The position numbers and the translations under genes are program-made. 64,000 nt of DNA from Paracoccaceae bacterium (GTDB lineage: Bacteria; Pseudomonadota; Alphaproteobacteria; Rhodobacterales; Rhodobacteraceae). Of this stretch, positions 19,916 through 38,359 are shown in pieces. The notes beneath the pieces are model-generated. The model was given only the letters and a program-made list of their open reading frames with translations. It ran no database searches and was not told the origin of the DNA. The stretch spans positions 570,580 through 634,579 of the forward strand of contig JACVZW010000007.1 of assembly GCA_014654775.1 (NCBI GenBank), given 5' to 3'. Each line of letters opens with the position of its first letter. Positions within the stretch are counted from its first letter, which is position 1.

Positions 19916-20091
19916 TGGATCTCGCGAAGCCGGACCAATTCGATCTGGACCGCCTTGCCGAAGAGCTGGGCGCTTTGCCGCACGCACCCCTTGCCATGCC
20001 GCTCCAGACGCTCGAACCCGCCCCGCGCGAGGGGCTTTTCTCGGCTCTTCTGCGCGCCCGTCCGCGGCGCATGGGCAAGGCCGGGTCATAG
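19912..20091 (+). CDS. opgI: OpgI-like small protein of the opgGIHC operon
   Basis: This is a 59-residue, leucine- and proline-rich soluble peptide (DLDRLAEELGALPHAPLAMP, then an Arg-rich C-terminus RARPRRMGKAGS). Its ATG overlaps the opgG stop (ATGA). It ends with TAG at 20089-20091; one GGC codon later opgH starts in the same reading frame. Position and size fit OpgI of Rhodobacter sphaeroides. Its AMP...RxRxR character resembles the cytosolic N-terminal extension of long OpgH proteins, so it may be the separated N-terminus of OpgH. Confidence 0.8.
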   Translation: MMDLAKPDQFDLDRLAEELGALPHAPLAMPLQTLEPAPREGLFSALLRARPRRMGKAGS

Positions 20092-20094
20092 GGC

Positions 20095-21855
20095 ATGGGG
20101 GCCACCGCCGCCCCTTTGCGCCGGGTGTATGCGACACGCACCCTCACCCTGACGGCCTCACTTCTTGCCGCAGGGCTTGGCTTCGTTGTCTTCCTGCAAT
20201 TCGGCGCCTCGGACGGTTTCGATGCCTTCGACGTGCTGCGCGCGGCGCTGATATTCGCCTCCACCTTTTGGCTGGCTTGGGGGGCCTTCACCGCCCTTGC
20301 GGGCCTGACCACCCGCCCCCCTGCCGTGCCGCGCGATCCGGGCCCGCTCCGCGCCATGACGGCGATCCTTGTCCCGGCCTACAACGAAGACCCCGTCGCC
20401 ACCTTTGCCCGCATCGCCGCGATGGAGGCTTCGCTGCGCGCCACGGGCCATGGCGACCGCTTCCACTTCGCCATCCTGTCGGACACCCGCAATGACGAAG
20501 TGGCGGCGCGCGAACGCATCTGGTTCCTGCGCCTGCTGGCCGACACCCATGGCGAAGGGCGCATCTTCTACCGCCGTCGCACCTCGAACAAAGGGCGCAA
20601 AGCGGGGAACATCGAGGATTTCATCAAACGCGCAGGCGGGGCCTATACCTACGCCATCATCCTTGATGCCGACAGCCTGATGGAAGGCGCGACCATGGTG
20701 GAAATGGTCCGCCGGATGGAGGCCGCGCCCGATCTCGGCCTTCTCCAGACCCTGCCCAAGGTGATCCGCGCCCGCTCCCGCTTCGGGCGCATCATGCAAT
20801 TCGCAGGCGGCTTCTATTCTCCCGTCTTCGCCCGTGGCCTTGCCATGATGCAGGGCCGCACCGGCCCCTTCTGGGGCCACAACGCCATCGTCCGCATGCG
20901 CGCCTTCGCCGAAAGCTGCGGCCTGCCGGAACTCTCGGGCAAACCTCCCTTCGGCGGCCACATCCTCAGCCATGACTATGTCGAGGCGGCCCTTCTCGCC
21001 CGCGCGGGCTGGACGGTGCGGGTGGATGACGATCTGCAGGGCAGCTATGAGGAAGCCCCCGAAAACATCATCGACCATGCCAAGCGCGACCGCCGCTGGT
21101 GCCAAGGCAACCTGCAGCATTCCCGCCTCCTCCTCGCCCCCGGCCTGAAGGCGTGGAGCCGCTTCGTCTTCCTGCAGGGCATCCTCGCCTATATCGCCCC
21201 GGTCTTCTGGCTGGCCTTCCTTGCCGCCTCCATCGCCGCGCCGCTTTTCGCGCCGCCGATTGACTATTTTCCCATCGAATACTGGCCCTTCCCGGTGCTT
21301 CCGGTCAGTCAGGTGTCCAAAGCGCTGGCGCTGGCCGTCGGCATCGGTGGCCTGCTGTTCCTGCCGAAACTCCTCATCCTGCTCGACGCAGCCCTGCGCG
21401 GCCGCGCGCGGGGCTTCGGCGGCGGCCTGCGCGCCCTGCAATCGACGCTGACGGAGCTCCTCTTCTCCTCTCTCACCGCGCCGATCTTCCTGATGTTCCA
21501 GACCCGCTCGGTCCTGCAGGTGCTGCGCGGGGCCGATGGCGGCTGGCCTGCCCAGTCGCGCGGCGACGGCACGCTGTCCTTCCGCGATGCATGGGCCGCC
21601 TCACACTGGATCGTCACCACTGGCGGCGTGGTGCTGGTCATGGCGCAATGGCTGTCGCCGGAACTCGTGCTCTGGCTGATGCCCGTGGCCCTGCCCATGG
21701 TGCTGGCACCGCTCCTGATCTCGTGGTCCTCGCGCCCCAGCCGCAGCCTGCTCTTCACCACCGAAACCGAAATCACCCCCGCCCCAGTGATGCGCCTGCA
21801 CGACGCCATTCTCGCGCGCTGGGACGAAAGCCTCGAAGACCGCAACGCCGCCTGA
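20095..21855 (+). CDS. opgH: Glucan biosynthesis glucosyltransferase OpgH (MdoH)
   Basis: The 586-residue inner-membrane enzyme has two N-terminal membrane segments (about 20-80), a family-2 glycosyltransferase core (PAYNEDPVATFARI, LSDTRNDEV, FYRRRTSNKGRKAGN, ILDADSLMEG, the QxxRW-like RRWCQGN), and several C-terminal membrane segments. It polymerises glucose from UDP-glucose and is thought to move the chain across the membrane. It is shorter than the roughly 850-residue enteric protein, which has a longer cytosolic N-terminus and C-terminal extension. In-frame opgI ends only one codon before its ATG. Confidence 0.95.
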   Translation: MGATAAPLRRVYATRTLTLTASLLAAGLGFVVFLQFGASDGFDAFDVLRAALIFASTFWLAWGAFTALAGLTTRPPAVPRDPGPLRAMTAILVPAYNEDPVATFARIAAMEASLRATGHGDRFHFAILSDTRNDEVAARERIWFLRLLADTHGEGRIFYRRRTSNKGRKAGNIEDFIKRAGGAYTYAIILDADSLMEGATMVEMVRRMEAAPDLGLLQTLPKVIRARSRFGRIMQFAGGFYSPVFARGLAMMQGRTGPFWGHNAIVRMRAFAESCGLPELSGKPPFGGHILSHDYVEAALLARAGWTVRVDDDLQGSYEEAPENIIDHAKRDRRWCQGNLQHSRLLLAPGLKAWSRFVFLQGILAYIAPVFWLAFLAASIAAPLFAPPIDYFPIEYWPFPVLPVSQVSKALALAVGIGGLLFLPKLLILLDAALRGRARGFGGGLRALQSTLTELLFSSLTAPIFLMFQTRSVLQVLRGADGGWPAQSRGDGTLSFRDAWAASHWIVTTGGVVLVMAQWLSPELVLWLMPVALPMVLAPLLISWSSRPSRSLLFTTETEITPAPVMRLHDAILARWDESLEDRNAA

Positions 21856-24486: not shown

Positions 24487-25377
24487 TCACGCCACCCGCA
24501 CGGGCCGAAGCATCAGGATCAGCCCCACCAGCGCCGTCAGGGTGAACACCGCCCCGAAGGCGGCGCTGGCGGCAAAGCCTTCCGCCCCGCTGGCCCCCGC
24601 CAGCGGAAACAGTGCGACGGCCGCCCCTTCCCGCAACCCCCAACCGCCCACCGTCAGCGGCACCAGCATCGCAAACAGCACCAGCGGCAGCACCACCAGC
24701 GCCGCGCCAAGGGGCAGCCACACCCCCACCGCCGCCGCCGCCGCCCAGAAGGCCACAAGGTTCAGTGCGACCGTCCCAAGGCTCAGCCCCGCCTGCAGGC
24801 CCCGCACCTCGCGCGCCAAAATCGCCACGCGCACCCCCTGACGCCACCGCGCCACCGCCGCCCGTTGCCCCGCCATCCGCGACAGACCCACCAGCGTCAG
24901 CCCAACCCCCCCGACCACCAGCAGCAGCACCCAGATCACCGCCCCCGGCACCTCCATCCCGCCGGGCACCAGCGTCACCGCGCCAACCCCCACCGCCGTC
25001 ACCACAACCAACGCCACCTGCCCCGCCGCCCGTTCCAGCACCACCGCCATCCCGGCCCGTTCCAGCCCCACTTCGGCCCGCGCACGGACGGCCCGCGCCG
25101 CATCGCCCGCCACGCCCCCCGGCAAGGCCATGTTCCCCGCCTGCGCCAGAAAATACTCACGCAGCGCATGGCCCATCGCGATCCGCTGCCCCAGCCGCGC
25201 CGCCACCAACCGCCAGCGCAGCGCCGACACCGCCGTCTGCGCCACCAGAAGCCCCGCCGCCAGCAACAGCCATCCCGGCTCCGCCCGCTGCAGAATGCCC
25301 AGCACCGCCCGCCAGTCCACAAACCACAGAAGCAGCCCCAGCAGCAGCACCGCCAGCACCCCGCGCAGCACCCTCAT
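24487..25377 (-). CDS. UPF0104 / lysylphosphatidylglycerol-synthase-TM flippase-like membrane protein
   Basis: The 296-residue protein has about eight membrane segments and the family marks ALRWRLVAARLG in an early loop, FLAQAGNMALPGGVAGDAARA near residues 75-95, and LTVGGWGLREGAA in the C-terminal part. These resemble the membrane domain of MprF and AglD-type proteins, which move or bind lipid-linked head groups. It lacks the MprF catalytic domain. It is the third gene of an overlapping operon after a CDP-alcohol transferase and a sulfatase-like protein, which points to envelope lipid or polymer transport. Confidence 0.82.
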   Translation of the reverse strand: MRVLRGVLAVLLLGLLLWFVDWRAVLGILQRAEPGWLLLAAGLLVAQTAVSALRWRLVAARLGQRIAMGHALREYFLAQAGNMALPGGVAGDAARAVRARAEVGLERAGMAVVLERAAGQVALVVVTAVGVGAVTLVPGGMEVPGAVIWVLLLVVGGVGLTLVGLSRMAGQRAAVARWRQGVRVAILAREVRGLQAGLSLGTVALNLVAFWAAAAAVGVWLPLGAALVVLPLVLFAMLVPLTVGGWGLREGAAVALFPLAGASGAEGFAASAAFGAVFTLTALVGLILMLRPVRVA

Positions 25378-26990
25378 GGCAAGGCCACCGAACTATAAGC
25401 CGCCACGATCCGGTCCCGCATCGCCTGCATCGGCAGAGGGATCATCTCGACCGGCGGCACCAGCCCCGGCGCAAAACCCCACTCCGCCACCCGCTCCACC
25501 AAGGCCGCAGGCCCGATCACATGCAGCGGCACATCCAGCCGATCCTCACCTGCGACGAACCCCGCCGCCTGATGATCGCCCAGCACAAAGGTCAGCGGCA
25601 TCCGCTCCGGGTCCATCCGCGCCAGCCAGTCCAGCACCACCTCCACAGAATAGGCCACCGACTGGCGATACTGGTCCCGCACCCGATCCCGGTCGCGCCA
25701 CACCACGGCGGGCGGATCGCCCTCTTGCGCCATCGCGTCGAAGATGCGGCCGTCGCCCACCTCCTCCCATGGCACCAGACGCGGCACCGGCACCCAGGGC
25801 GCATGTGACGAAATCAGCACCACCTGCGAGAACCGCCGACCCTCTCCCGCCACCCCCAGCAACCGGTCAAAGGCCGCCAATGTATACTGATCCGGCATCG
25901 TCACCCAGTTGAAGGGCAGGCCCTTGTATCCCAGTTCCGCCGCCGGAAAGATGCGGTCGAACCCCTTCTTCTCCCCTTCCGGCCAGGCCATGGTGATGGC
26001 CGGCATCACCGCCCCCGTCTCGAACCCCGCTCTTTGCGCGATGTGGAACAGCCCCTCTCGCCCGCTCGCCAGCAGGGCCTGATAGCGCAGCTGATCGCTC
26101 ACCCGCAGGCCGCTGGCAAAGGTGGCATGGGCCAGCCAGCTCTGCCCGCCCCGGGTGGATGAGGCCAGATAGCCCGACCGCATCGCTACCCCCCGCGCCG
26201 CCAGCGCGGCCTCCCCCTTGGTTAGAACGCCCTGCGTCGTCTCGGCGAAAAGTGGCCCTTCCACGCTCGCCCGCCCATAGCTTTCGATGAAGACGACCAC
26301 CACATCCCGGTCGATCCGGTCCAGAAGGTCCGTCCGCCCAAGCAGGGGATCGGCCTCTGCCGCCGCGCGGAACTCGCGCATCGCGGCCCCTGCGCGAAAC
26401 ACCAGCCGCACCTCCTCCGCCGCCACCCGCGCGGTAAAGGCGGCGCCCGGCGGGTTCCATGGCATCTGCCAGCGGTTCATGATCCCCGCCACCTCATAGG
26501 TCGCAACCAGCGCCAGCGTCAGCGCCACGCCCCCCGCCAACCGCCGCGCCAGAGGCTGCACCAGCAGCCCCGCCCGCGCCCAAGTGGCCATCGCCCGCTC
26601 CAGCAGCCAAAACAGCCCGCCGACCAGCACGACCAGCCCCAGCACCGCCGCCACCGCCACCACAGGCCCCGCCGACCCCGTCAGCAGGTTCACCCCCGCC
26701 CCGGCCAGCATCCGGTCCCCCACCGGGTTGAACCCCCGGCCAAAGGCCACGAACATCGCCATATCCGCCGCCTTCGCCGCGATCACCAGAACCAGCAGAC
26801 CCGCCAGACCCCGCCGCAGCCACCGCCCTGCGCGCCCGTCGCCCAACAGCGCCAGCCCCAGCAGCAGCACGGGCAGTTCCAGCGGAAACAGGATCAGCGC
26901 CCGCCACGTCACCGCGTCTGGATGGTTGGGCTGCACCAGCACCAGATGCAGGACCAAAGCTGACAGCAGCAGCGCGAGTCCCTGCCTCAT
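25374..26990 (-). CDS. Membrane-anchored sulfatase/phosphatase-fold protein (LtaS-like architecture)
   Basis: The 538-residue protein has about five N-terminal membrane segments (residues 1-170) and a large periplasmic alkaline-phosphatase-superfamily domain. The domain starts VVVFIESYGRAS (E236) and continues with SSTRGGQSWLAHATF, where S278 or T279 could be the nucleophile. Later come ISSHAPWVP and the metal-type LGDHQAAGF. This layout is that of lipoteichoic-acid synthases and phosphoglycerol or phosphoethanolamine transferases. Start and stop overlap both neighbours by 4 bases. Together with the CDP-alcohol transferase it may transfer a glycerophosphate-type group outside the membrane; this is inference. 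Confidence 0.8.
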   Translation of the reverse strand: MRQGLALLLSALVLHLVLVQPNHPDAVTWRALILFPLELPVLLLGLALLGDGRAGRWLRRGLAGLLVLVIAAKAADMAMFVAFGRGFNPVGDRMLAGAGVNLLTGSAGPVVAVAAVLGLVVLVGGLFWLLERAMATWARAGLLVQPLARRLAGGVALTLALVATYEVAGIMNRWQMPWNPPGAAFTARVAAEEVRLVFRAGAAMREFRAAAEADPLLGRTDLLDRIDRDVVVVFIESYGRASVEGPLFAETTQGVLTKGEAALAARGVAMRSGYLASSTRGGQSWLAHATFASGLRVSDQLRYQALLASGREGLFHIAQRAGFETGAVMPAITMAWPEGEKKGFDRIFPAAELGYKGLPFNWVTMPDQYTLAAFDRLLGVAGEGRRFSQVVLISSHAPWVPVPRLVPWEEVGDGRIFDAMAQEGDPPAVVWRDRDRVRDQYRQSVAYSVEVVLDWLARMDPERMPLTFVLGDHQAAGFVAGEDRLDVPLHVIGPAALVERVAEWGFAPGLVPPVEMIPLPMQAMRDRIVAAYSSVALP

Positions 26991-27697
26991 CCCCGGTTCC
27001 GCCACAGCCACAGCACATCCCGCCCGAAGGACCAGCCCAGCACCGCCACCGCCGCCCAGCCGATCACCCGCGCCACACCCTCCGGCCAGCCCGGCGCCTG
27101 CAACAGGATCAGCGCCGCGATCTGCACCACGCAAGCCGCCTTGCGCCCGAACTTTGGCGGCAAGGGCGCGGCCAGCCACGGAAAGGGCAAGAACCCGGCG
27201 ACAAAGACATAACGCATCAGGCCCAGCGCAAGGATTTCCACTCCGGTCTGCCCCGACAGCCATAGGTGCCCCGCAAGCACCGCCGCCAGCGCCGCATCCA
27301 CCTCCATGTCGAACCGCGCCCCAAAGGCCGAGGACAGGCCGCTCCGCCGCGCCAGCCACCCATCCACCCCATCTGCGGCCAGCGCCACCGCCGCCACCGC
27401 CAGCACCGCCCAACCACCCGGTTCCGCGATCATCAACGCCGCCAGCCCCGCCACCGCGCCCGCCCGCGCCAGCGTCACCGCATTGCACCCGCCGAAGCGC
27501 GCATGCGGATAATGCCGCCCCGCCTGCCGCATCACGAAGGCCAGCACAGCCACCATCCCCGCCACCGCCAGGAGCGCAGCCCCGGTCCCGCCCATCGCGC
27601 CGACCGCCAACGCCAGAAGCAGCGCCAAGCCCCCCGCCGGGATCACACCCTCGGGCAAGCCCCTTGAACCGCCGATGCCAGCCTCTACCTGCCCCAT
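26987..27697 (-). CDS. CDP-alcohol phosphatidyltransferase-family membrane enzyme
   Basis: The 236-residue protein contains a complete CDP-alcohol phosphotransferase motif: D109, D112, G113, A116, R117, G126, D130 and D134, in DGVDGWLARR followed by GARFDMEVD. The enzymes swap CMP of a CDP-alcohol for an acceptor alcohol, as in phosphatidylglycerophosphate or phosphatidylinositol synthesis. A longer-than-usual N-terminal region holds extra hydrophobic segments. It heads an overlapping operon with a sulfatase-like and a flippase-like protein. Its start codon is only 23 bp from the divergent cytochrome b561 start. Confidence 0.88.
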   Translation of the reverse strand: MGQVEAGIGGSRGLPEGVIPAGGLALLLALAVGAMGGTGAALLAVAGMVAVLAFVMRQAGRHYPHARFGGCNAVTLARAGAVAGLAALMIAEPGGWAVLAVAAVALAADGVDGWLARRSGLSSAFGARFDMEVDAALAAVLAGHLWLSGQTGVEILALGLMRYVFVAGFLPFPWLAAPLPPKFGRKAACVVQIAALILLQAPGWPEGVARVIGWAAVAVLGWSFGRDVLWLWRNRG

Positions 27698-27720: not shown

Positions 27721-28254
27721 ATGCCCCAAGGCTATACCCCCGCCCAACGCTGGCTGCACTGGATCATCGCGGCGCTCATCCTGCCGATGATCGTGGCGGG
27801 CCTCATCATGGTGCAATCCGGCCTGCCGCGCGGTCTTCAGAACGCGCTCTTCATCGGCCACAAGAACATCGGCACACTGCTCCTGGTCCTCGTCACCCTG
27901 CGCCTTGCCCTCCGCCTGCGCCGGGGCGCACCCGCCCTGCCTGCCAGCATCCCCGCCCTCCAGCGCCGCATCGCCGAGGCCAGCCACGCCACTCTTTACG
28001 CGCTGATGCTGCTGCTGCCCCTCTCGGGCTATATCCGCGTCCGCGCGGGCGGCTTCCCGATCGAGGCGCTGGATCGTCTTGGCCTGCCCACCTTCGTCCC
28101 GCGCTCCGACACCCTCGCCACAGCGGCGAAGACCGTGCACGAATATGGCGGCTATGCTCTGATGGCGCTCCTCCTTGCCCATATCGGCGCGGCCATCCAT
28201 CACGGCCTGCGCCGCGACGGCCTCTGGGCGCGCATCTGGCCGCCGCAGGGCTAA
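27721..28254 (+). CDS. Cytochrome b561-family membrane protein
   Basis: The 177-residue protein has four membrane segments and histidines placed for two b hemes (H13, H47, H89, H140, H154, in WLHW, IGHKN, ASHAT, TVHEYG and LAHIG). The start YTPAQRWLHWIIA is typical of bacterial b561 proteins such as CybB/YceJ, which exchange electrons between quinone and periplasmic acceptors, including superoxide. A GGAGGG ribosome site lies 5 bases before the ATG. The stop is 10 bp from the convergent RibD-like gene. Confidence 0.9.
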   Translation: MPQGYTPAQRWLHWIIAALILPMIVAGLIMVQSGLPRGLQNALFIGHKNIGTLLLVLVTLRLALRLRRGAPALPASIPALQRRIAEASHATLYALMLLLPLSGYIRVRAGGFPIEALDRLGLPTFVPRSDTLATAAKTVHEYGGYALMALLLAHIGAAIHHGLRRDGLWARIWPPQG

Positions 28255-28264
28255 GGCCACCACC

Positions 28265-29095
28265 TCACAGCCCCCCCGCCGCCACCACCGGCGCGGCATG
28301 GATCGGCGCCCAGGCCGCAACCGCTTCTGGCACCAGCGCGCAATCGAAAACGACCTCCGGCCCCAGCCCGTAGGTCCGCGCCTCGGGCCGGATCGCATCC
28401 GCCAACCGCGCCACCGGATCGCGCAGCGTGAGGCTTGCAGGCCCCGCCCCGATCAGCAGCGGCGAAATCGCCACCTGCAACCGCGTCAGCAACCCCGCCT
28501 CCAAGAACCGCCCGATGGTGATCCCGCCACCTTCGACCAGCAGCGTCGCGATCCCCCGCGCCTGCAGCGCCGCCAGAATGTCCCCCGGCGCGAACCACCC
28601 CTCGCCTTCGGGCAGATGGACCACTTCCACCCCCTCCGGGCGCGGCCGATCCACGGCCTGCACCACGATCCGCCGCGCTCCATCCTCGCGGAAGATCTCC
28701 ATGTCATCCGGCACCCGCCCGCGCGGGTCCAACAGGATGCGTGCCGGGTTCTCGCCCTTGCACATCCGCACCGTCAGCCGTGGCCGGTCATGCAGCGCCG
28801 TCCGCGCCCCGATCAGCACCCCATCGACCAGCGCCCGCATGCGGTGCAGGTGGGCCAACCCGTCTGGCCCGGAAATATCCTTCGCATCCCCCGAAACCGT
28901 CGCAATCCGCCCATCCAGCGACTGCCCGATCTGCGCCACCGTCACCGGCCCCAGATCGCGCCGGGCGAGCGGCGCATAAAGCGACAGCGCCGCCCGCTCC
29001 CCCGCGCTCCAGCGCCCGCAGCAGGCACAGCCCCGGCCCTCCCGCAGCGCAAGGATGCGGTCCCAGACCCGCGGCGTCACCTCAACCGTCTGCAT
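28265..29095 (-). CDS. RibD C-terminal-domain (dihydrofolate-reductase-like) reductase
   Basis: The 276-residue protein has an unusual ~50-residue N-terminus with a Cys cluster (C23, C25, C26 in GCACCG). A RibD reductase domain follows: GQSLDGRIATVSGDAKDISG, HRMRALVDGVLIGARTALHD, LLVEGGGITIGRFLEAGL and a closing ISPLLIG. In riboflavin synthesis this fold reduces the ribosylamino side chain with NADPH, but free RibD-C proteins act on other pteridine- or pyrimidine-like substrates. The deaminase half of RibD is absent. It overlaps the preceding methyltransferase by 14 bases and ends a four-gene operon with a PTPS-fold protein. Confidence 0.82.
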   Translation of the reverse strand: MQTVEVTPRVWDRILALREGRGCACCGRWSAGERAALSLYAPLARRDLGPVTVAQIGQSLDGRIATVSGDAKDISGPDGLAHLHRMRALVDGVLIGARTALHDRPRLTVRMCKGENPARILLDPRGRVPDDMEIFREDGARRIVVQAVDRPRPEGVEVVHLPEGEGWFAPGDILAALQARGIATLLVEGGGITIGRFLEAGLLTRLQVAISPLLIGAGPASLTLRDPVARLADAIRPEARTYGLGPEVVFDCALVPEAVAAWAPIHAAPVVAAGGL

Positions 29096-29861
29096 CGCGC
29101 GCCTCCCTTCCTGGCGGCACTGCCAGCAGGTCCAAATGGCCGATCACCATCGCCCCCTGACCCAGCATCGCCCGCCGCGCCGCCAACCAGCGCGCCGCCT
29201 CATCCACCGCCACACCCGCCTCCTCCGCCGCCGCCGCGATGCCCTCCAGCAGCGCCGCGCCAAGCGCCGCCTGATCCGGGCCGATCCGCCACGGGCTGTC
29301 AGCAAGGCGCACGCGATACCCCGCCGCTTCGAACAGCGCTGCCGCCCGTGCCACGGCGTCAGGCCCCAGCGCCGGACCAAAGCCCTTGTCGCCCCGCTGG
29401 TGCCGATTGAAGGCCGCCGTCACGCCCGCATCCCCGCCATCCGCCGGGTCCCATGCCATCCGCCCGTCATAGCTCAGCGCCGCCAGAAACGGCAGCCGCC
29501 GCGCCGCCAGAACCTGCACCAGCCCCGCCAGCCACGCTTCCGACACAAGGTCCAGCAGCGCCGACGCCGTCACCAGCGTCGCCCCCGCCAAGGGCAGCGC
29601 CGCCAGATCGCGCAGGTCCATGAGATGCCGCTCGCCCGAGCAGAGCGACAACAGCGCCGCATCCCCCTCCACCATCCGCCAGACGGCGCCCTCGGGCAGA
29701 GCTGCGCCAAAGGCCCGCCGCGTGGACCCCGTCCCCGCGCCAAGGTCCACGACCACGGGCCGCGCCCCGGCCAACCCCGCCGCCTCGGCCATCAAGGCAG
29801 CATCCCGCGCCGCATGGTCGGCGGGTTCGCGCAGGGACAGCCAGTCGGCGGAAAACCCCAT
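29082..29861 (-). CDS. Class I SAM-dependent methyltransferase
   Basis: The 259-residue protein has the glycine-rich SAM loop VVDLGAGTGSTRRAF at 37-51 and a plausible acidic motif II (MVEGDAALL), then a mixed alpha/beta core. The N-terminus SADWLSLREPADHAARD is unlike ubiquinone or small-molecule methyltransferases I recognise. The start is 4 bases from the stop of the PTPS-like gene and the end overlaps the RibD-like gene, so these act together. The substrate is unknown; a small heterocycle made by the neighbours is an inference. Confidence 0.8.
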   Translation of the reverse strand: MGFSADWLSLREPADHAARDAALMAEAAGLAGARPVVVDLGAGTGSTRRAFGAALPEGAVWRMVEGDAALLSLCSGERHLMDLRDLAALPLAGATLVTASALLDLVSEAWLAGLVQVLAARRLPFLAALSYDGRMAWDPADGGDAGVTAAFNRHQRGDKGFGPALGPDAVARAAALFEAAGYRVRLADSPWRIGPDQAALGAALLEGIAAAAEEAGVAVDEAARWLAARRAMLGQGAMVIGHLDLLAVPPGREARDADG

Positions 29862-29864
29862 CCC

Positions 29865-30260
29865 TCAGATGTCCCCTTCGCACCACGCCCGGGCCATGTG
29901 GCTTTCGTGCAAAGTGATCCGCAGCCGCTTCACCCGGCCGCCATCCTTCAAATCGCCCGCCCGCAGCCGCGCGGCCATCCCCTTGTGGATCACCCCGCAG
30001 AGGAACTCGGTCGTGGTGAACTTGCCTTTGAACTCCGGCACCTCGTCCAGATTGCGATAGCGCAGCGGCGTCAGCACCGCCGCCAAGGCCTCCACCGCCA
30101 GCCCGATATCCACCACCAAACCGTGATCATCGATATCCTCGGCAAAGAAGGCCGCATCGACCGTAAAAGTCGCCCCATGCATCCCCTGCGCCGGCCCAAA
30201 AACGGGCGAAGGCAGGCTATGGGCGATCATGATATGGTCTCTCACTTCGACGGCATACAT
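29865..30260 (-). CDS. PTPS/QueD-fold protein lacking canonical zinc and catalytic residues
   Basis: The 131-residue protein follows the T-fold of 6-pyruvoyl-tetrahydropterin synthase: IAHSLPSP (H14), GMHGATFTVD (H28), GLVVDIG, FTTTEFLCGVI and the end TLHESHMARAW (E118). In QueD-type enzymes two zinc histidines flank a glycine (HGH), with a catalytic Cys before them and an Asp-His pair in the middle. Here HGH is HGA, no Cys sits before it, and the DHxxLND block reads RYRNLDEV. Fold and pterin pocket are kept but the standard chemistry is unlikely. It lies between a BchC-like dehydrogenase and a methyltransferase. Confidence 0.8.
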   Translation of the reverse strand: MYAVEVRDHIMIAHSLPSPVFGPAQGMHGATFTVDAAFFAEDIDDHGLVVDIGLAVEALAAVLTPLRYRNLDEVPEFKGKFTTTEFLCGVIHKGMAARLRAGDLKDGGRVKRLRITLHESHMARAWCEGDI

Positions 30261-30290
30261 CGGTCGGTCCTTCCGGTCTGTCGGTTTGGG

Positions 30291-31373
30291 TCAATAACGA
30301 ATGCGGTGGCACAAGGTTTCAGGATCGGTCAGCACGCGCCCATAGTCCTCGGCCATCTCGGCAAAGGGCGTCTCGCCGGATATCAGCGCCTCCAGCACCG
30401 GATCGCGCAATAACTCCAGCGCCTTTTCCAACCGCCGCCGATAGGTCCAGCGCGGCGCGCGGGCCGGCGGCACCTGCCCCACCTGCGACCCAATCAGCCG
30501 CAGCCTTTGGCTGTGGAACGCCCCGCCCAGCGCCACGGGCACCGCCCCTGCGCCATACCAGCTCGCCTCCACCACCGCCGCTTCAGGTCCCGCAAGACCG
30601 ATCGCCGTCTCCAGCCCGGCGGCACTCGCGCTCGTGTGGATCACCACGTCGCGCGCGCCCGTTGCCTCCCCCGGCAAGGCGAAACCGCACCCAAGGCCCG
30701 CCGCCAACGGCGCGCGCGCAGTCAGTCGGTCCACCAGCACCACCTCCGCCCCCGGCAGCCGCGCCGCAAGGTATCCCACCAACGCCCCCACGACGCCCGC
30801 GCCCACCACGGCGATCCGATCCCCCGGCCCCGCGCCGCTGTCCCAGATCACGTTCAGCGCTGTCTCCATGTTCGCGGCCAGCACCGCCCGCGCAGGCGGC
30901 ACACCCTCGGGCACGGGCACCAACGCCGCCTCGGGCAGCCGGAACCCGCGCTGATGGGGATGCAGCGCAAAGACCGCCCGCCCCGCCATCGGCCCTTCCG
31001 TCACCTCGGCCACCATCGCATAGCCGTACTTCACCGGATGGGGAAACTCCCCCTCCTGAAACGGCGCACGCATCCGCACCCGTTCTGCCTCCGGCACCCG
31101 GCCCTCGAAGACCAGCCGCTCGGTTCCCCGGCTGATCCCCGAATACAGCGCGCGGCAGGCCAAGCCTTCGCCCATCGCACCGGGCCGCAGCGCCGCGCGT
31201 CCCGCGCCTTCGCACCACAGCGCCATCCGGTGATCCGCGTCCCGCTCCAGCCCCGCCTCCCGCCGATGATGAACCGTCGCAGGTGACGCCATCCGATCCC
31301 CCGGCGCAAGCCCAAGGGAATCGCCACCCGGCGCGGCCTGCCCTTCGGCCCGGAAATTGGCGTTGCTTTTCAT
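30291..31373 (-). CDS. BchC-like medium-chain dehydrogenase without the catalytic-zinc cysteine
   Basis: The 360-residue protein is an MDR-superfamily oxidoreductase with a Rossmann loop VVGAGVVGALVGY (G190, G192, G195). The catalytic region reads ALYSGISRGTERLVFEGRVP, with Ser-Gly-Ile-Ser where zinc alcohol dehydrogenases have a Cys ligand; this resembles BchC, the bacteriochlorophyllide dehydrogenase. The start at 31373 has a GGGAG ribosome site. Family similarity begins only near residue 50, so starts at 31292 or 31226 are possible. It heads the operon with the PTPS-like, methyltransferase and RibD-like genes; no photosynthesis gene is nearby. Confidence 0.82.
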   Translation of the reverse strand: MKSNANFRAEGQAAPGGDSLGLAPGDRMASPATVHHRREAGLERDADHRMALWCEGAGRAALRPGAMGEGLACRALYSGISRGTERLVFEGRVPEAERVRMRAPFQEGEFPHPVKYGYAMVAEVTEGPMAGRAVFALHPHQRGFRLPEAALVPVPEGVPPARAVLAANMETALNVIWDSGAGPGDRIAVVGAGVVGALVGYLAARLPGAEVVLVDRLTARAPLAAGLGCGFALPGEATGARDVVIHTSASAAGLETAIGLAGPEAAVVEASWYGAGAVPVALGGAFHSQRLRLIGSQVGQVPPARAPRWTYRRRLEKALELLRDPVLEALISGETPFAEMAEDYGRVLTDPETLCHRIRY

Positions 31374-31566: not shown

Positions 31567-32304
31567 ATGACCATGGACATCTCCACCACGCTCGGCCTCG
31601 CCCGGTCGCTGGTGATCTATCACAACCCGCTGCGCCTGATCGCCCTGCGCCGCTTCTACGCGGCCCTCCTGCCCGCCGGGGCGCTGGCCTTCGACGTGGG
31701 CGCCCATGTCGGGAGCCGCGCCCGCGTCCTGCGCGCGGCGGGCGCGCGGGTCGTGGCCGTCGAACCGCAGGCCGCCTTCGCCCGCTTCCTGCGCCGCACC
31801 CTGCCCCGCGACATCACCCTGATCGAAGCCGCCCTCGGCCCTCGCGAAACCACCGCAGAAATGGCCGTCTCCGCGCTCCACCCCACCGTCTCCACCCTGC
31901 AACCCGATTTCGCCGAAACCGCAGGCGCGGCCCCCGGCTTCGGCCATGTCCGCTGGGACCGGCGGCAAACCGTGCAGGTCACCACGCTCGACCGCCTGAT
32001 CGCCACCCATGGCCGCCCCGACTACATCAAGATCGACGTGGAGGGGTTCGAGCTTGACGTGCTCTCCGGCCTCTCCCAACCCGTCCCGCTGATCTCGATC
32101 GAATACCTGCCACCCTTGCCCGACAGCACGCTCCGCGTCATCGCGCGGCTTGCCGAGCTTGGCCCCTACCGCTTCAACTCCGTCGCGGGCGAAAGCGGCC
32201 GCTTCCTCTGGTCCGACTGGCGCGACGGCACCGCCACGGCGGCGTGGCTGCAAGGCCTTCCGCCCACCGCCCGCTCCGGCGATCTCTACGCCCGGCTGTC
32301 CTGA
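31567..32304 (+). CDS. FkbM-family SAM-dependent methyltransferase
   Basis: The 245-residue protein has SAM motif LAFDVGAHVGSRARVLRAAG near residues 41-60, AVEPQ as motif II, and the FkbM hallmark YIKIDVEGFELDVLSGL near 155-172. Family members O-methylate sugars and other hydroxyl groups in glycan, lipid or polyketide products. Two ATGs six bases apart could start it. Its end overlaps the convergent inositol-monophosphatase-like gene by 19 bp. The 190-bp divergent region before it is shared with the BchC-like gene. Confidence 0.85.
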   Translation: MTMDISTTLGLARSLVIYHNPLRLIALRRFYAALLPAGALAFDVGAHVGSRARVLRAAGARVVAVEPQAAFARFLRRTLPRDITLIEAALGPRETTAEMAVSALHPTVSTLQPDFAETAGAAPGFGHVRWDRRQTVQVTTLDRLIATHGRPDYIKIDVEGFELDVLSGLSQPVPLISIEYLPPLPDSTLRVIARLAELGPYRFNSVAGESGRFLWSDWRDGTATAAWLQGLPPTARSGDLYARLS

Positions 32305-33086
32305 CCGCCCCGCACCAGCACGGCAAAGGCGTCAAACAAAGCGGGCGTCGCACAGAGCACGCTGCCCGTCTCCCACGGGTCCTCACCCAACGTCACGCCT
32401 TCCACCCGCACGCCCGCCTCCGCCATCAGCGCCAGCCCCGCCGCCACATCCCAAGGCCGCAGCCGCCGCTCCCAGAACCCGTCCAGCCGCCCCGCCGCCA
32501 CATAGGCGAGATCAAGCGCCGAGGCCCCCGTCCGCCGCACCCCGGCGCAATGCGGCATCAGCCGCGCGATATCGGCGGCATGGTCTTCGATATGCGCCAT
32601 GCCCCCGAACGGGATCCCCGTCCCGAACAGCGCCCCCGACATCCCCGCCCGCGCCACGGCAGGCAGGATGCGTCCATTCACCCGCAGCCCCGTCCCCGGC
32701 GCGGCGGCAAAAGTCTCGCCATGCAGCGGGTCATGGATCACCCCCAGCAAAGGCCGCCCCTCCACCTCCAGCGCGACAGACACGCACCAATAGGGCAGGC
32801 CGCGCAGGAAATTCGTGGTCCCGTCCAGCGGATCGACGACCCAGCGCCGCCCCTGTCCCGCTTCTTCCCCCATCTCCTCGCCCAGCCAGCCATCCCCCGG
32901 CCGCGCCCCCAGAAGCCGCCGCTTCAAAAGTGCCTCGGCCTCGCGATCCGCCTCCGACACAAAGTCGCCCGCGCGCTTCTCCTCCACCCGCAGCCGATCA
33001 CGCGCCCGGTGATGGCGGAGCAGCGCCACCCCTGCATCCTCGGCCGCCGCCACGGCCAACGCCAGTTCGTCTTCCCACTTCGTCAC
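32286..33086 (-). CDS. Inositol-monophosphatase-family phosphatase
   Basis: The 266-residue product has the family's metal motifs: DFVSEADREAE, GEEMGEE (E70/E71), WVVDPLDGTTNF (D85, D88) and RPWDVAAGLALMAEAG. Enzymes of this type hydrolyse inositol monophosphate, histidinol phosphate, PAP or related esters using Mg. The GTG start at 33086 overlaps the stop of the glycosyltransferase gene (GTGA), which sets it over an upstream ATG that would give a glycine-rich non-family leader. Coupling to a GT4 and proximity to a CDP-alcohol transferase suggest a sugar- or polyol-phosphate substrate. Confidence 0.87.
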   Translation of the reverse strand: MTKWEDELALAVAAAEDAGVALLRHHRARDRLRVEEKRAGDFVSEADREAEALLKRRLLGARPGDGWLGEEMGEEAGQGRRWVVDPLDGTTNFLRGLPYWCVSVALEVEGRPLLGVIHDPLHGETFAAAPGTGLRVNGRILPAVARAGMSGALFGTGIPFGGMAHIEDHAADIARLMPHCAGVRRTGASALDLAYVAAGRLDGFWERRLRPWDVAAGLALMAEAGVRVEGVTLGEDPWETGSVLCATPALFDAFAVLVRGGQDSRA

Positions 33087-34144
33087 GCCCGCACCCCCGC
33101 CACCACCTGCGCCAAGACCTCCGCCGCCCGGCGCGCCACCGCATCCCATCCCGGCAGTGCCGCCCCTGCCCGCCGCGCGGCCCCGGCCATCGCTGCCCGC
33201 CGCGCCGCATCCGTCAGCACCGCCCGAAGCGCCGCCGCAAAGGCTACCGGATCATCCGGCGGCACCAGCAACCCCGCCTCCGCAGGCACCGTGTCCGGCA
33301 CCGCGCCTGCCCGGCAACTCACAATGGGCAGCCCCGCCAACAGCGCCTCGTTGAAGACGATCCCATAGCCCTCATAACGCGTCGCCAGCGCGAAGACGGA
33401 TGCCTGCGCATAAAGCCGATCCCGCTCCTCCATCGACACCCGCCCTGCCAGCCGGATGCGCCCGCGCAAGGGCGACGCCGCCAGCTGTGACTCAAGCGCC
33501 TCCACATGCGCAGCATCACGCGGAGTCCCGGCGATCACCGCCTGCCAGTCCAGATCCCCCAGACCCTCCAGCGCCGTGATCAGGACATCATGCCCCTTGC
33601 GCGGGTCCAGCAGCCCGACCGACAGGATCAGCGGCGGCACCGCCCTCGCCACCTCGGCTGCGGCAGGCCGATCCACCCCCGGCTCCAGCACTTCGATCCG
33701 CGCCCGAGGCACGCCATAGCGCGCAACCAAAAGCCCCGCCACATGCCCGCTTGGCACCAGCACATGGCGGGCCAGCGCCAGATTGTCCCGCTCCCGCCGC
33801 CACAGCGCCTCGGCCACCGCCGGGTCCAACCCCGGCTCCATCGCCAAGGGATGATGCACCAGCGCCACCAAGGGCGCGGTGATCCCTGCCACAGCCGCCG
33901 TCGGCAGCGCCCCGAAGGCGAGCCCGTCCACAATCACCACCCGTCCCGCAGGCTGCGCCGCAATCTGTGCCACCGCTGATGCCATCGCCGCCGCGCCGGG
34001 ATCGGGAAACCCGTCAGGCAGCGTCACCACCGCCACCCCGTGCCCCGCTCCCCGCAGCGAGTCGACCAGCCGCCGGTCATAGAAAGACCCCCCGGTCAGG
34101 GTCTCAAGCGCACCGGGAAGGGCAAGGGCAAGGTCAAGCGGCAT
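33083..34144 (-). CDS. GT-B fold glycosyltransferase, family 4
   Basis: The 353-residue protein starts with LALPGALETLTGGSFYDRRLVDSLR, a typical acceptor-side N-terminus. It has a nucleotide-sugar domain with SVGLLDPRKGHDVLITAL and the EX7E-type motif EGYGIVFNEALLAGLPIVSCRAGAVPDTV. Such retaining enzymes transfer sugar from nucleotide sugars to lipids, proteins or small molecules. ATG at 34144 suits the family N-terminus; a GTG 36 bases upstream is the alternative, and neither has a strong ribosome site. It is followed with overlap by the phosphatase. Confidence 0.88.
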   Translation of the reverse strand: MPLDLALALPGALETLTGGSFYDRRLVDSLRGAGHGVAVVTLPDGFPDPGAAAMASAVAQIAAQPAGRVVIVDGLAFGALPTAAVAGITAPLVALVHHPLAMEPGLDPAVAEALWRRERDNLALARHVLVPSGHVAGLLVARYGVPRARIEVLEPGVDRPAAAEVARAVPPLILSVGLLDPRKGHDVLITALEGLGDLDWQAVIAGTPRDAAHVEALESQLAASPLRGRIRLAGRVSMEERDRLYAQASVFALATRYEGYGIVFNEALLAGLPIVSCRAGAVPDTVPAEAGLLVPPDDPVAFAAALRAVLTDAARRAAMAGAARRAGAALPGWDAVARRAAEVLAQVVAGVRA

Positions 34145-34359
34145 GAAGGAAAGGTCGTCCCGAACAACGGCGCCATGCACCGCCCGGCATCAGATAGGGT
34201 CGCGGGGCAGCACATCAATCGCCCGCCGCCTCCCGCTCTGCGCCGTCGGGCGCGAGATCCTCCTGCAACCGATAAGCCGGGACAAAACCACCCCTGCCTG
34301 ACTCAACTCCGACCTTCACCTTCAGAGGATGATGAATACCACCGGCACCGGCGGACCGA

Positions 34360-35458: not shown

Positions 35459-36234
35459 CAGGCGTAATCCTTGCCGTAATCGCGCCCGGCATGGCGCAGA
35501 AAGTAAAGGCCCAGCAGGAACAGCGGCAAGCTCATCACGATGCTGCCATAGTCGCCGAACGCGGTCGGACCTGCCGCTGCCCCGGCTGCCGCAGCGCCCC
35601 CTGCGGCGATGAAGAAGGTGCCCGCATCCCACAGCCCATGCAGCACGATCCCGGTCCAGAGCGAGCCTGTCCGCAGCCGCACAGCGGCAAGGAAGATACC
35701 CGACAGGAAGGCGGCACCTGCCTGAATCACCGCCCCCCGCAGATCCCCGGTCAAAAAGACGTTGAGCACATGTATCGCCCCGAACAGGACCGACGACCCA
35801 AAGATCGCCACCCAGATGCCGCCACTGCGGAACAGACCGCGCAGAATGATGCCGCGGAACATCACCTCTTCGGACCAGCCGACCATCATCGTATTGGCAA
35901 GGATGAACAGCGTCACCGTTGCGGGCGGCATCCCGGCCCCCAGCGCGCTGACCGCAAAGAGCGCAAGGAACAGAAGCCACGGCCAGATCACCTTGAGCGT
36001 GCCGCGCTGCGGGCCTTGGGCCAGACCGACCTCGCGCCACCAGCGCATCACCAAAACGGTCGCCAGAAGGAACAGGCTCGCCGCCCCGAGGGAGGGCGAG
36101 ATGCCATGTTTCACGAGGTCGAGAAGATCGATCTCTTCCGATCCGCTTCCGAATTTCTGGATGCCGAGGCCGATCGCCTGCCAGATCAGATAGACGCCAA
36201 TCGCAACTAGGGCTGTCAGCTTCATTTCGACCAT
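35458..36234 (-). CDS. CPBP-family intramembrane glutamic endopeptidase
   Basis: The 258-residue protein has about eight membrane segments and the CPBP (Abi/Rce1-like) motifs SEEVMFRG (E122, E123, R127), FGAIH (H155) and LHGLWD near residue 200. These enzymes cleave inside membranes; bacterial members process peptides, bacteriocin-related factors or prenylated-like substrates. Its start lies 13 bases inside the end of the preceding hydrolase gene and its end is coupled to the ClpP-fold gene, making a three-gene minus-strand operon. Confidence 0.87.
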   Translation of the reverse strand: MVEMKLTALVAIGVYLIWQAIGLGIQKFGSGSEEIDLLDLVKHGISPSLGAASLFLLATVLVMRWWREVGLAQGPQRGTLKVIWPWLLFLALFAVSALGAGMPPATVTLFILANTMMVGWSEEVMFRGIILRGLFRSGGIWVAIFGSSVLFGAIHVLNVFLTGDLRGAVIQAGAAFLSGIFLAAVRLRTGSLWTGIVLHGLWDAGTFFIAAGGAAAAGAAAGPTAFGDYGSIVMSLPLFLLGLYFLRHAGRDYGKDYA

Positions 36235-38198
36235 GTCCCGTCAGGAAGAAGGAAGGCAGGCACCAGATCGTCCGCACATGACGCATCCAACGCTGCTTCG
36301 GGGTTTTCAAGGAAGGCCGCGCCGATATCCTTGGCGCATTGCGAAAAGGCCAGCGTGCCGTGGCCGCTTTCGGGCAGGAACACCAACCGCCCCTTCGGCA
36401 GCGACGACACCATCAACGCGCCCCAACTCGGCGCGGTCTGGGTGTCGAACGCACCCTGCATCACCAAGGTCGGGATGGCGGCGGTGACCGGATCATGGAA
36501 GCCGGGCCGGGGCTGGGGCGTGAATTCCTTGCACAGGTCGTAGAAAGTGGCGTTCAGCAGCCCTTCATACATGTCCGTCAGGCTTTTGGGCCAGCCAAAC
36601 TCGGATTGCAGGCGCAGGCTGACGGCGGCGGCCCCTTCGGGCGAATTGATGTCCATATCCTCCTGACAGGCGAACATCTGGGTCTGGAACCCTTCCAGAA
36701 GCACCCGGTCAAGGGCCGCATTGTCGGCCCCGACCCGGGCAAAGACCTGCGCCACCTGCCCGTCGTCCAGCATCCCCGCCAGCGTTTCCAGCCGAGCCAG
36801 CGTCTCGGCGCCAAAATGGCGTCGTAGCATCGCCGTCAATGCCACCCGCGTGGCCGCACCGGTTCGCAGCCGCAAGTAATCTGCCGCAAAACCCACGCGG
36901 GCGGGTTGGTCGGGCAGGGCCTGCGCGGCATCGAGAAGCGCCGCCTCAAACTCATCCACCAGCCCCGCCCCGCTGGCGGCGGCGGCCCGGTCGGCCTCCA
37001 GCCGCGTCAGCATCGCCTCGACCATCTTGGTGTTCTGCTGCCCCGCCATCGCCAGCCGCAGCGCGGTTTCAGCGAAGGCCATCGCATCGGCATCCAGCCC
37101 CGTCAGCCCGGCAAGCGCGCTTTCCGGTGTGGGGTGAAGGACGATCTTTCCCCCGGTCAAGGCAAGGAAAGTCGTTGCATCCCCCTGTTCCAGTTCCGCC
37201 ACGACTTTCGGGATGTACCCCGTCATCCCCTGCAACTGCGCCTTCCAGTTGTTGCGGGTATCGACAAGGCCAAAAAGCGCCTCGGCGTCGATGTCGCCTT
37301 CTGGTGTCTTGATCGGTTGCGTCTCCAGCTTGCCGATCAAGGTCCAGAAGCGGGCCCTCAGGTCCGGATAGGCGGCGGCGCATTTCGAATCCGCCGTGCA
37401 GGCGTCAAAGATGCCTTGGATCGCCTCGGCATGGGGCAGGGCCAGCGTGTCGTAGATAGGCACCTGCACAGGCGCGACCGAATCCAACACCACCGACCGC
37501 AATCCGTCAGGGGCAGAGCGCATCACCTCCTGCCCCAGCTTGGTGCCATAGGAAATCCCGTAGATATTGTAGACCGGATAGCCCAGCGTGTGCATCACCG
37601 CCTGCACATCCTGCGCATTCTGCCATGTGTTGATCTTGGTGATGTCCGCACCCGAGGCCGCGATTTCATCCAGACAGGCCCGGGTCATCTGGCGCGTCAG
37701 GGCGATCGTGTCCCCCACTCCCTTCGTCGCCTGCACCAGCGCTTCGGGGTCCGAGGCCAGCGTGTCAAAGCAGCGCGTCTCGGCTGCAGCCGACTGATCC
37801 ACCCCACGCTGATCGAAAGCCACCACATCGCGGCGGCCGCGCAGATGTTCAAAGAAGGTGGTGGTGATCGAGGTGCGCGCCACGATCCCCACACCGGGGC
37901 CGCCATGCAGATGCACCACCGCATCCGGCGCGGGCGAGACCGAGCGCGACTTGTAAATCATGAAGCTCAGATCAATCCGGCGGCCCTCCGGAGCCTCATG
38001 ATCCTCCGGCACGCTGATCTTGCCACAGGCCACGGTGCGGCCCTCGATCTCGAACGGGGCCAGTGGGCGCGGGCAAGGGGCGGCCACCACCGGAAAGCGC
38101 GGATCAGCCCCACCTGCGGCAATGACAGGAAAGAGCGGATCGACAGGCGCGGGCGCCGTCAACGCAAGGACGAAGGCGACGATCTGGTCGGGGGTCAT
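36222..38198 (-). CDS. Tripeptidyl-aminopeptidase-like alpha/beta hydrolase, copy 1
   Basis: The 658-residue protein has an oxyanion HGGPG at 98-102, FDQRGVDQS, and the nucleophile S216 in IYGISYGTKLG. A long helical insert follows, then a C-terminal hydrolase part with Asp in GAFDTQ and His in PESGHGTLAF. TAP-like and proline-iminopeptidase-like enzymes release short peptides or free residues. The start at 38198 has AGGA 9 bases upstream; an ATG at 38207 would sit on it. No signal peptide is seen. It is paralogous to the divergent gene 161 bp away; both begin MTPDQIVA. Confidence 0.85.
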   Translation of the reverse strand: MTPDQIVAFVLALTAPAPVDPLFPVIAAGGADPRFPVVAAPCPRPLAPFEIEGRTVACGKISVPEDHEAPEGRRIDLSFMIYKSRSVSPAPDAVVHLHGGPGVGIVARTSITTTFFEHLRGRRDVVAFDQRGVDQSAAAETRCFDTLASDPEALVQATKGVGDTIALTRQMTRACLDEIAASGADITKINTWQNAQDVQAVMHTLGYPVYNIYGISYGTKLGQEVMRSAPDGLRSVVLDSVAPVQVPIYDTLALPHAEAIQGIFDACTADSKCAAAYPDLRARFWTLIGKLETQPIKTPEGDIDAEALFGLVDTRNNWKAQLQGMTGYIPKVVAELEQGDATTFLALTGGKIVLHPTPESALAGLTGLDADAMAFAETALRLAMAGQQNTKMVEAMLTRLEADRAAAASGAGLVDEFEAALLDAAQALPDQPARVGFAADYLRLRTGAATRVALTAMLRRHFGAETLARLETLAGMLDDGQVAQVFARVGADNAALDRVLLEGFQTQMFACQEDMDINSPEGAAAVSLRLQSEFGWPKSLTDMYEGLLNATFYDLCKEFTPQPRPGFHDPVTAAIPTLVMQGAFDTQTAPSWGALMVSSLPKGRLVFLPESGHGTLAFSQCAKDIGAAFLENPEAALDASCADDLVPAFLLPDGTWSK

Positions 38199-38255
38199 GT
38201 CTGGCATTCCTGAACAAGTGCCACACTGTCCCGCCTTTGCCGCGCCCCGCCTATC

Positions 38256-38280
38256 CGAAACGCGAAATCCCAGCGTTTCG
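38256..38280. promoter_or_regulatory. Inverted repeat in the divergent hydrolase promoter region
   Basis: The perfect 8-bp arms CGAAACGC and GCGTTTCG are 9 bases apart, about one and a half helical turns centre to centre, in the 161-bp region between the two divergent paralogues. This suits an operator that could control both genes. A related half-site (CGAAGCACCGC in reverse) lies close by. Confidence 0.4.
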
Positions 38281-38359
38281 GAGCGGTGCTTCGCGTTGCG
38301 GATAGCGGCGACTCGGGCATCGCCTAAACAGATCGCAGCATCAGCGAAAAGGCCGCCCC

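Follow-up and report, generated by a model that had tools for sequence, protein, structure and literature searches.

The 64,000-nucleotide stretch of Paracoccaceae contig JACVZW010000007.1 analysed here (the window) contains a gene cluster around a homologue of 6-pyruvoyltetrahydropterin synthase (PTPS). Four minus-strand open reading frames (ORFs) lie side by side and encode a stand-alone RibD-like reductase, a methyltransferase (MT), the PTPS-like protein, and a medium-chain dehydrogenase/reductase (MDR). The RibD-like and MT frames overlap by 14 bases, with gaps of 3 bases between MT and PTPS-like and 30 bases between PTPS-like and MDR, and the ORF list thus agrees with the initial annotation, which had reported four adjacent genes with gaps or overlaps of −14 to 30. 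As all four frames are conserved at the protein level across dozens of genomes, they are not chance frames, and the four-gene operon is confirmed as real. Upstream of this core and on the same strand are two further genes, for a GT4-family glycosyltransferase and an inositol-monophosphatase-like protein (32286–34180); both recur with the core and were missed by the initial annotation, which had limited the set to four genes.

The AlphaFold2 model of the PTPS-like protein (pLDDT 94.4) has its best solved match in 3d7j, the SCO6650 protein of Streptomyces coelicolor; this holds for sequence comparison (E 4.6e-51) as well as for fold (TM 0.96, 52% identity), where QueD and human PTPS come next (TM 0.7–0.8). 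Its T-fold and close sequence match to 3d7j place it in the same family as SCO6650. To our knowledge, SCO6650 has been known as a single orphan structure with no function assigned, whereas here its relatives are laid out with conserved neighbours in a cluster that crosses phyla. In an alignment with 1b66, the residue that we take to be the catalytic cysteine is replaced by A24, the second histidine of the HGH motif (presumably a zinc ligand) by A30, and the presumed catalytic Asp-His pair by R67-Y68. All 40 aligned sequences share A24, A30, and Y68, together with the retained H14, H28, and E119; in total, 35 of 131 positions are invariant. We read H14 as ligating zinc and E119 as anchoring the pterin. 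A 2008 report is said to have described SCO6650 as lacking zinc, the catalytic triad, and PTPS activity; the triad loss, which we assume for SCO6650 itself, is shown here for 40 relatives, and the residues lost in the window's family appear to fit a zinc-free, PTPS-inactive SCO6650 type.

Public records mostly annotate the PTPS-like gene as 6-carboxytetrahydropterin synthase. The subfamily motifs given in PMC5041015 include CxxxHGH, CxxxxxHGH, and ExxHGH; in the alignment, the PTPS-like protein contains none of these, nor the Asp-His catalytic pair. Because the motifs are absent and the catalytic residues replaced, the annotation is very probably wrong for the SCO6650-type family. Taken at face value, the public labels would make the protein a QueD and the cluster a route to queuosine or a related deazaguanine, and they are joined by a match to the QueD NCBIfam model (E 1.6e-06) and by a QueC-profile match in the window's genome just over its cut-off (25.2 versus 22 bits). 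The QueD score, however, is 28.4 bits against a cut-off of 89.25, the CxxxHGH motif is absent, and the QueC match spans only 57 of 210 positions within a 622-residue frame. A queuosine route was rejected on these grounds (partial QueC match, loss of the QueD active site) and because the genome has one PTPS homologue and no second; we regard it as the least credible of the explanations weighed here.

The RibD-like protein consists of a RibD_C domain alone (residues 53–222 of 276), rather than the deaminase and reductase of bifunctional RibD, and scores below the NCBIfam cut-offs for eubact_ribD (90.6 versus 156.35 bits), the RibD C-terminal domain (117.3 versus 150.15), and the archaeal reductase equivalog TIGR01508 (97.7 versus 186.45). 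Among solved structures it is closest to 6p8c (E 3.8e-33) and 2azn (E 1.8e-32), which we take to be archaeal riboflavin-route reductases acting on 2,5-diamino-6-ribosylamino-4(3H)-pyrimidinone 5′-phosphate (DARPP) before deamination. The MT has no Pfam or NCBIfam match, and its AlphaFold2 model (pLDDT 96.5) adopts a class I methyltransferase fold, the nearest structure in the PDB being 3mgg at 11% identity.

The MDR likewise has no Pfam match. Its Rossmann part resembles that of alcohol dehydrogenases, and among NCBIfam models bchC scores highest, at 25.5 bits where the cut-off is 291.25. Zinc-dependent MDR alcohol dehydrogenases possess catalytic cysteine and histidine zinc ligands; 26 MDR sequences share GISRGTE-type and KYGY blocks that appear to stand at the places of these zinc motifs, and the enzyme therefore reads as zinc-less. 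The first ~50 residues are missing in nearly all homologues. The extra ~50–55 N-terminal residues (window 31202–31373) are also found in the related locus L020, and because the ATG at 31373 and the preceding Shine-Dalgarno-like GAGAGGC are conserved there, the longer form may be real in the window's genus. BchC, the bacteriochlorophyllide dehydrogenase, is the best-named relative (38% identity over 76 residues to a BchC-like protein of genome G083); unlike BchC, the MDR scores far under the family cut-off, has no photosynthesis genes nearby in the window, and occurs in genomes without reaction-centre genes. Bacteriochlorophyll synthesis was rejected: 14 photosynthesis queries (E 1e-15) matched nothing in the window or in loci L020–L172 (up to ~10 kb on each side), and matches occurred only in L173 and L174 (both G083), L176 (G244), and L177 (the reaction-centre contig of the window's own genome).

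A scan of the PTPS-like protein against a collection of one genome per species confirmed at least 469 relatives. The best 80 of these named relatives form a close set, biased towards near kin, in whose loci (some incomplete at contig ends) neighbours were found by tblastn with window proteins. As near relatives share synteny by descent, a distant set of 385 evenly drawn alphaproteobacteria was also searched. Within it, the PTPS-like profile finds 48 genomes, of which 45 are strong matches once G211, G214, and G425 (E 2e-6 to 1e-4) are left out as weak; 40 of these 45 carrier loci were taken with ~9 kb on each side where the contig allows, G000, G212, G406, G407, and G465 not being included.

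In the best 80 close loci, MT is found beside PTPS-like in 78, MDR in 77, RibD-like in 76, and GT4 in 49; among the 40 distant loci, the figures are 39 for MDR, 38 for GT4 (usually directly after PTPS-like), 34 for MT, and 32 for RibD-like. Restricting the distant loci to the 33 flanked by 5 kb or more on each side gives MDR in 33, GT4 in 32, MT in 29, RibD-like in 26, and GTP cyclohydrolase II (GCHII) in 15. Clustering of called proteins identified GCHII, of ~374 residues, in 43/80 best close loci; it is absent from the window copy and present in 16/40 distant loci. The inositol-monophosphatase-like gene occurs in 56/80 best close loci. The expectation that the genes would be neighbours in other genomes was therefore borne out in nearly all relatives. 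Over the 80 close loci, 23 patterns of gene presence and order were seen, with MDR, PTPS-like, MT, and RibD-like arranged in four different ways but still together; protein distance matrices are all positively correlated (r 0.47–0.79), a result that does not tell co-inheritance apart from species relatedness. The functional unit is thus larger than four genes and extends beyond the Rhodobacterales: the core is partnered by GT4, often by GCHII, and here also by the inositol-phosphatase-like enzyme.

Table 1. Genes of the cluster and its surroundings in the window.
Feature	Position	Strand	Basis
RibD_C-like stand-alone reductase, no deaminase domain	28265..29095	-	Pfam RibD_C E 1.6e-35
Class I S-adenosylmethionine-dependent methyltransferase (MT), unnamed family	29082..29861	-	predicted fold
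SCO6650-type PTPS homologue (T-fold), lacking the catalytic triad and one zinc ligand	29865..30260	-	Pfam PTPS E 4.4e-20
BchC-like medium-chain dehydrogenase/reductase (MDR), lacking the zinc-ligand motif	30291..31373	-	NCBIfam bchC, below cut-off
GT4-family glycosyltransferase, core member	33083..34180	-	Pfam Glycos_transf_1 E 2.1e-27
Inositol-monophosphatase-family gene, frequent among close relatives only	32286..33149	-	Pfam Inositol_P E 3.9e-56
FkbM-family methyltransferase, frequent opposite-strand neighbour	31567..32304	+	Pfam Methyltransf_21 E 2.4e-19
Cytochrome b561-type protein, accessory neighbour	27721..28254	+	Pfam Ni_hydr_CYTB E 6.2e-24, longer frame
CDP-alcohol phosphatidyltransferase, accessory neighbour	26987..27697	-	Pfam CDP-OH_P_transf E 6.8e-16
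Membrane sulfatase-family protein, accessory neighbour	25374..27011	-	Pfam Sulfatase E 4.7e-08
Lysylphosphatidylglycerol-synthase-TM (flippase-like) protein, accessory neighbour	24487..25377	-	Pfam LPG_synthase_TM E 6.1e-36

The distribution of the cluster is patchy. In the window's family, the PTPS-like gene is present in 13 of 149 genomes, and within ~1.5 kb of it these 13 carriers have MT in 12, MDR in 9, GT4 in 7, and RibD-like in 6. Plasmid matches comprise 20 records, 14 of which were inspected; among these, the gene set is found, with variations, on plasmids of Palleronia, Peteryoungia, Agrobacterium, Rhizobium rhizoryzae, and Methylosinus, of the gammaproteobacterium Thiodictyon, and of the actinomycetes Streptomyces fungicidicus, S. 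globisporus, and Microbacterium. RibD-like was not found near the Neorhizobium plasmid locus, nor GT4 at the plasmid locus of strain SC52, and an Arthrobacter locus has only MDR, PTPS-like, and GT4. Carriers among the listed genome loci include Pseudohaliea rubra and Aquiluna metagenome-assembled genomes, one on a 748-kb contig. This patchy spread, which includes plasmids, suggests that the cluster moves horizontally. PfkB-family, ribokinase-like kinases adjoin the cluster in Palleronia (L119 9997–10887) and in strain SC52 (L129 7834–8754).

The GCHII of the cluster bears on the question of its starting material. Leaving aside a fragment (L044), a RibBA-type protein (L155), the RibA of the window's own genome (L018 and L178), and the G074 copy (L180), 62 of 64 cluster GCHIIs carry tyrosine at the RAYxLQ position, and the two from Streptomyces carry methionine. 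This methionine was reportedly found by Spoonamore in 2006 to make S. coelicolor SCO6655 release a formylated product instead of DARPP. SCO6655 is named as a GTP cyclohydrolase II in PMC2853524. In both GCHII-bearing Streptomyces clusters, a creatininase-family gene lies beside the Met-type GCHII, and BrbF of Sinorhizobium, a creatininase-family protein, is given in PMC9478397 as a formamidase yielding DARPP; by analogy, Tyr-type and Met-type clusters may therefore both be able to reach DARPP. A strict rule under which creatininase would accompany Met-type GCHII only failed, as the gene also co-occurs with the Tyr type. In G063 and G074, the cluster GCHII is additional to another full GCHII. 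In the window and in L020, the FkbM gene lies directly upstream of MDR, the place held by GCHII in other close relatives (L021 and L024), and for this reason the cluster GCHII has probably been lost in the window's genus.

Elsewhere, the window's genome encodes a full-length RibD of 398 residues, the N-terminal half of which is read as the deaminase, together with a RibA on contig C10 (~57%–60% identical to cluster GCHIIs), a RibBA-type protein, and FolE2; FolE was not found in this genome. The RibD-like protein is accordingly not the cell's sole riboflavin reductase, the case in which, by the initial annotation, the pathway idea would have failed. Since RibD, GCHII, and FolE2 all lie elsewhere, the cluster appears not to be needed for riboflavin or folate. 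GCHII and RibD-type proteins are nonetheless riboflavin enzymes, and PTPS paralogues can serve folate according to PMC5041015, so that the genes might be taken for a variant riboflavin, folate, or biopterin route. Such a housekeeping role is very unlikely, given the separate enzymes and the restriction of the PTPS-like gene to so few genomes of the family, and all three readings were rejected on the separate RibD, GCHII, and FolE2 and on the missing PTPS motifs. The initial annotation had likewise set the locus apart from riboflavin, folate, queuosine, and bacteriochlorophyll synthesis, and this stands; its statement that none of the genes of those routes are present does not extend to the wider set, of which the riboflavin-type GCHII is part in the proportions given above.

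We propose, with a probability of roughly 58%, that a conserved biosynthetic cluster with these four genes as its core, arranged around the SCO6650-type PTPS homologue, makes a methylated, glycosylated pteridine-type product from GTP via DARPP. GCHII would open GTP to give DARPP, the enzyme being supplied by the cluster in many relatives and here probably by RibA on contig C10. The lone RibD-like reductase would then act on DARPP before deamination, as in archaea, to give a 2-amino ribityl compound that would lie off the bacterial riboflavin route, and the inositol-phosphatase-like enzyme would remove the phosphate. The PTPS-like T-fold protein would hold the 2-amino-4-oxo ring, probably via the conserved E119, and guide a ring-closing or isomerising step for which zinc would not be needed. 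Thereafter, the zinc-less dehydrogenase could adjust a side-chain hydroxyl or carbonyl, and MT and GT4 would methylate and glycosylate the product. What the data establish is the gene set with its conservation, the family assignments, and the loss of PTPS catalytic residues. The chemistry from GTP to the ribityl-diaminopyrimidinone is likely, whereas the later steps and the pteridine-type product, like each substrate and the order of steps, are inferred. The initial proposal of a pterin- or deazapurine-like route survives in its pterin-like outline, a deazapurine product having no support of its own.

Several observations weigh against this proposal. RibD-like was not found in 8/40 distant loci (7/33 uncut), nor GCHII in 24/40 (18/33 uncut), and for this reason the first two steps may not be dedicated everywhere. 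The inositol-monophosphatase-like gene was found in none of the 40 distant loci at >50 bits, the threshold used there for this and the flippase-like gene. Creatininase occurs with Tyr-type GCHII in L139, L140, L160, and L161, and without a GCHII counted nearby in L141, L142, and L153. Two inspected Streptomyces plasmids carry PTPS-like alone with no cluster. An extra full GCHII lies near the cluster in only 2 of the 13 family carriers (G063 and G074), and at the G083 locus neither MT nor MDR was found, only PTPS-like and GT4; because of these last two points, our confidence was lowered slightly, from 60%.

The same genes could also make something other than a pteridine, with the PTPS-like protein serving in binding or as a chaperone and the product being a decorated ribityl-pyrimidine or nucleoside-like compound. 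The replacement of the catalytic cysteine, the Asp-His pair, and one zinc ligand by residues invariant across the 40 sequences (A24, A30, and Y68) points in this direction, as does the lack of GTP cyclohydrolase I (GCHI) or lumazine synthase among the recurrent cluster genes identified. The invariance of over a quarter of the PTPS-like positions argues, however, against decay and in favour of a specific role towards a small molecule, and we consider a non-pteridine product a distinctly weaker, though serious, candidate.

Genes flanking the core recur less evenly. FkbM methyltransferase was found in 49/80 best close and 6/40 distant loci, CDP-alcohol phosphatidyltransferase in 37/80 and 13/40, sulfatase in 34/80 and 5/40, and the cytochrome b561-type gene in 25/80 and 9/40. 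The flippase-like gene, present in 33/80 best close loci and in Microbacterium and two Streptomyces clusters, was found in none of the 40 distant loci at >50 bits; a creatininase-family gene occurs in seven distant loci. An MdoH-like gene (33% identity to an annotated MdoH, 255 bits) and a gene read as MdoG are near the cluster in the window (18296–21855), and MdoH adjoins the cluster in 10/40 distant loci. If the phosphatidyltransferase, flippase-like protein, sulfatase, cytochrome b561, and MdoH were real partners, the core could supply the head group of a lipid-linked or envelope compound. The presence of MdoH in the window and in those distant loci is in keeping with this, as are the phosphatidyltransferase counts and the occurrence of that gene in the Streptomyces, Microbacterium, and Thiodictyon clusters, but the gene is missing within ~9 kb in 27/40 distant loci, where MDR is kept in 39/40, and accessory content is more variable than the core; an envelope product is thus improbable. 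The GT4 protein itself scores under the cut-offs of the specific NCBIfam models listed. Further along the window (36222–40306), two genes in divergent orientation encode large alpha/beta hydrolases that carry a TAP-like domain at the C-terminus (frames of 730 and 648 residues).

The proposed pteridine route can be compared with two known ones. Archaea enter riboflavin synthesis through a formamidopyrimidine-forming GTP cyclohydrolase, the deformylase ArfB, and the reductase ArfC. The two Streptomyces clusters with Met-type GCHII and creatininase resemble this entry, as does the RibD_C reductase through its kinship with 2azn and 6p8c; in contrast, the cluster adds the PTPS-like protein, zinc-less MDR, MT, and GT4, and a full RibD is encoded separately in the window's genome. 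The cyanobacterial biopterin glucoside pathway employs GCHI, PTPS-II, sepiapterin reductase, and a glucosyltransferase, and is similar in logic (GTP cyclohydrolase, PTPS fold, oxidoreductase, and glycosyltransferase), the comparison being by description and not by sequence. It differs in that the cluster has GCHII for GCHI, a PTPS without the active site, RibD-type and MDR reductases, and an added methyltransferase. No description of the pathway was found in the open-licence PMC papers searched; the initial view of it as undescribed holds to that extent, but SCO6650, an orphan of solved structure, already belongs to the PTPS-like family.

A link between the cluster and light exposure is possible but weaker, and is offered as a lead only. 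In the family sample, reaction-centre genes are present in 9/13 carriers versus 52/136 non-carriers (p = 0.039); the class sample has them in 11/45 carriers versus 15/340 others (p = 3.5e-5), and a Fisher test at the level of families (24 and 19 of them, 9 shared) gives p = 0.0003 on the assumption of 162 families, the highest label seen. Against a role in light stand the 34/45 carriers with no reaction centre and the lack of rhodopsin enrichment (4/45 carriers versus 31/340 others, p = 1; one of the 31, G394, is under the curated cut-off). Because carriers are mostly large (39/45 genomes of at least 3 Mb), genome size may, together with phylogeny, explain the association. In G083 (L173 15591–18001 and L174 1–12000), PTPS-like and GT4 directly adjoin photosynthesis genes, which are read as crtC, crtD, crtE, crtF, bchC, bchXYZ, and puf, the place of puf agreeing with the reaction-centre match; BchC might stand in for MDR in this genome. 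Loci L160 (G483) and L161 (G308) come from genomes of 1.4–1.6 Mb with rhodopsin genes and retain the full cluster in divergent form, with GCHII and creatininase.

A bolder and doubtful extension is that the product represents a new class of bacterial cofactor or natural product. It would be a methylated glycoside of the 8-ribityl-pterin or a related type, perhaps anchored to lipid, made from DARPP by a zinc-free T-fold enzyme; it would be common to Pseudomonadota and Actinomycetota, be kept even in those small rhodopsin-bearing genomes, and serve a light role as antenna, photosensor, or ultraviolet screen. The public annotation of the PTPS-like gene as a queuosine enzyme is contradicted by the evidence presented here. 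If the proposed pathway is correct, bacteria of two phyla would have in common one small molecule derived from what GCHII produces, in whose synthesis a T-fold enzyme would do without the zinc site typical of its better-known relatives. The set of six or seven genes and the predicted first committed intermediate make the orphan SCO6650 testable, and several carriers are culturable.

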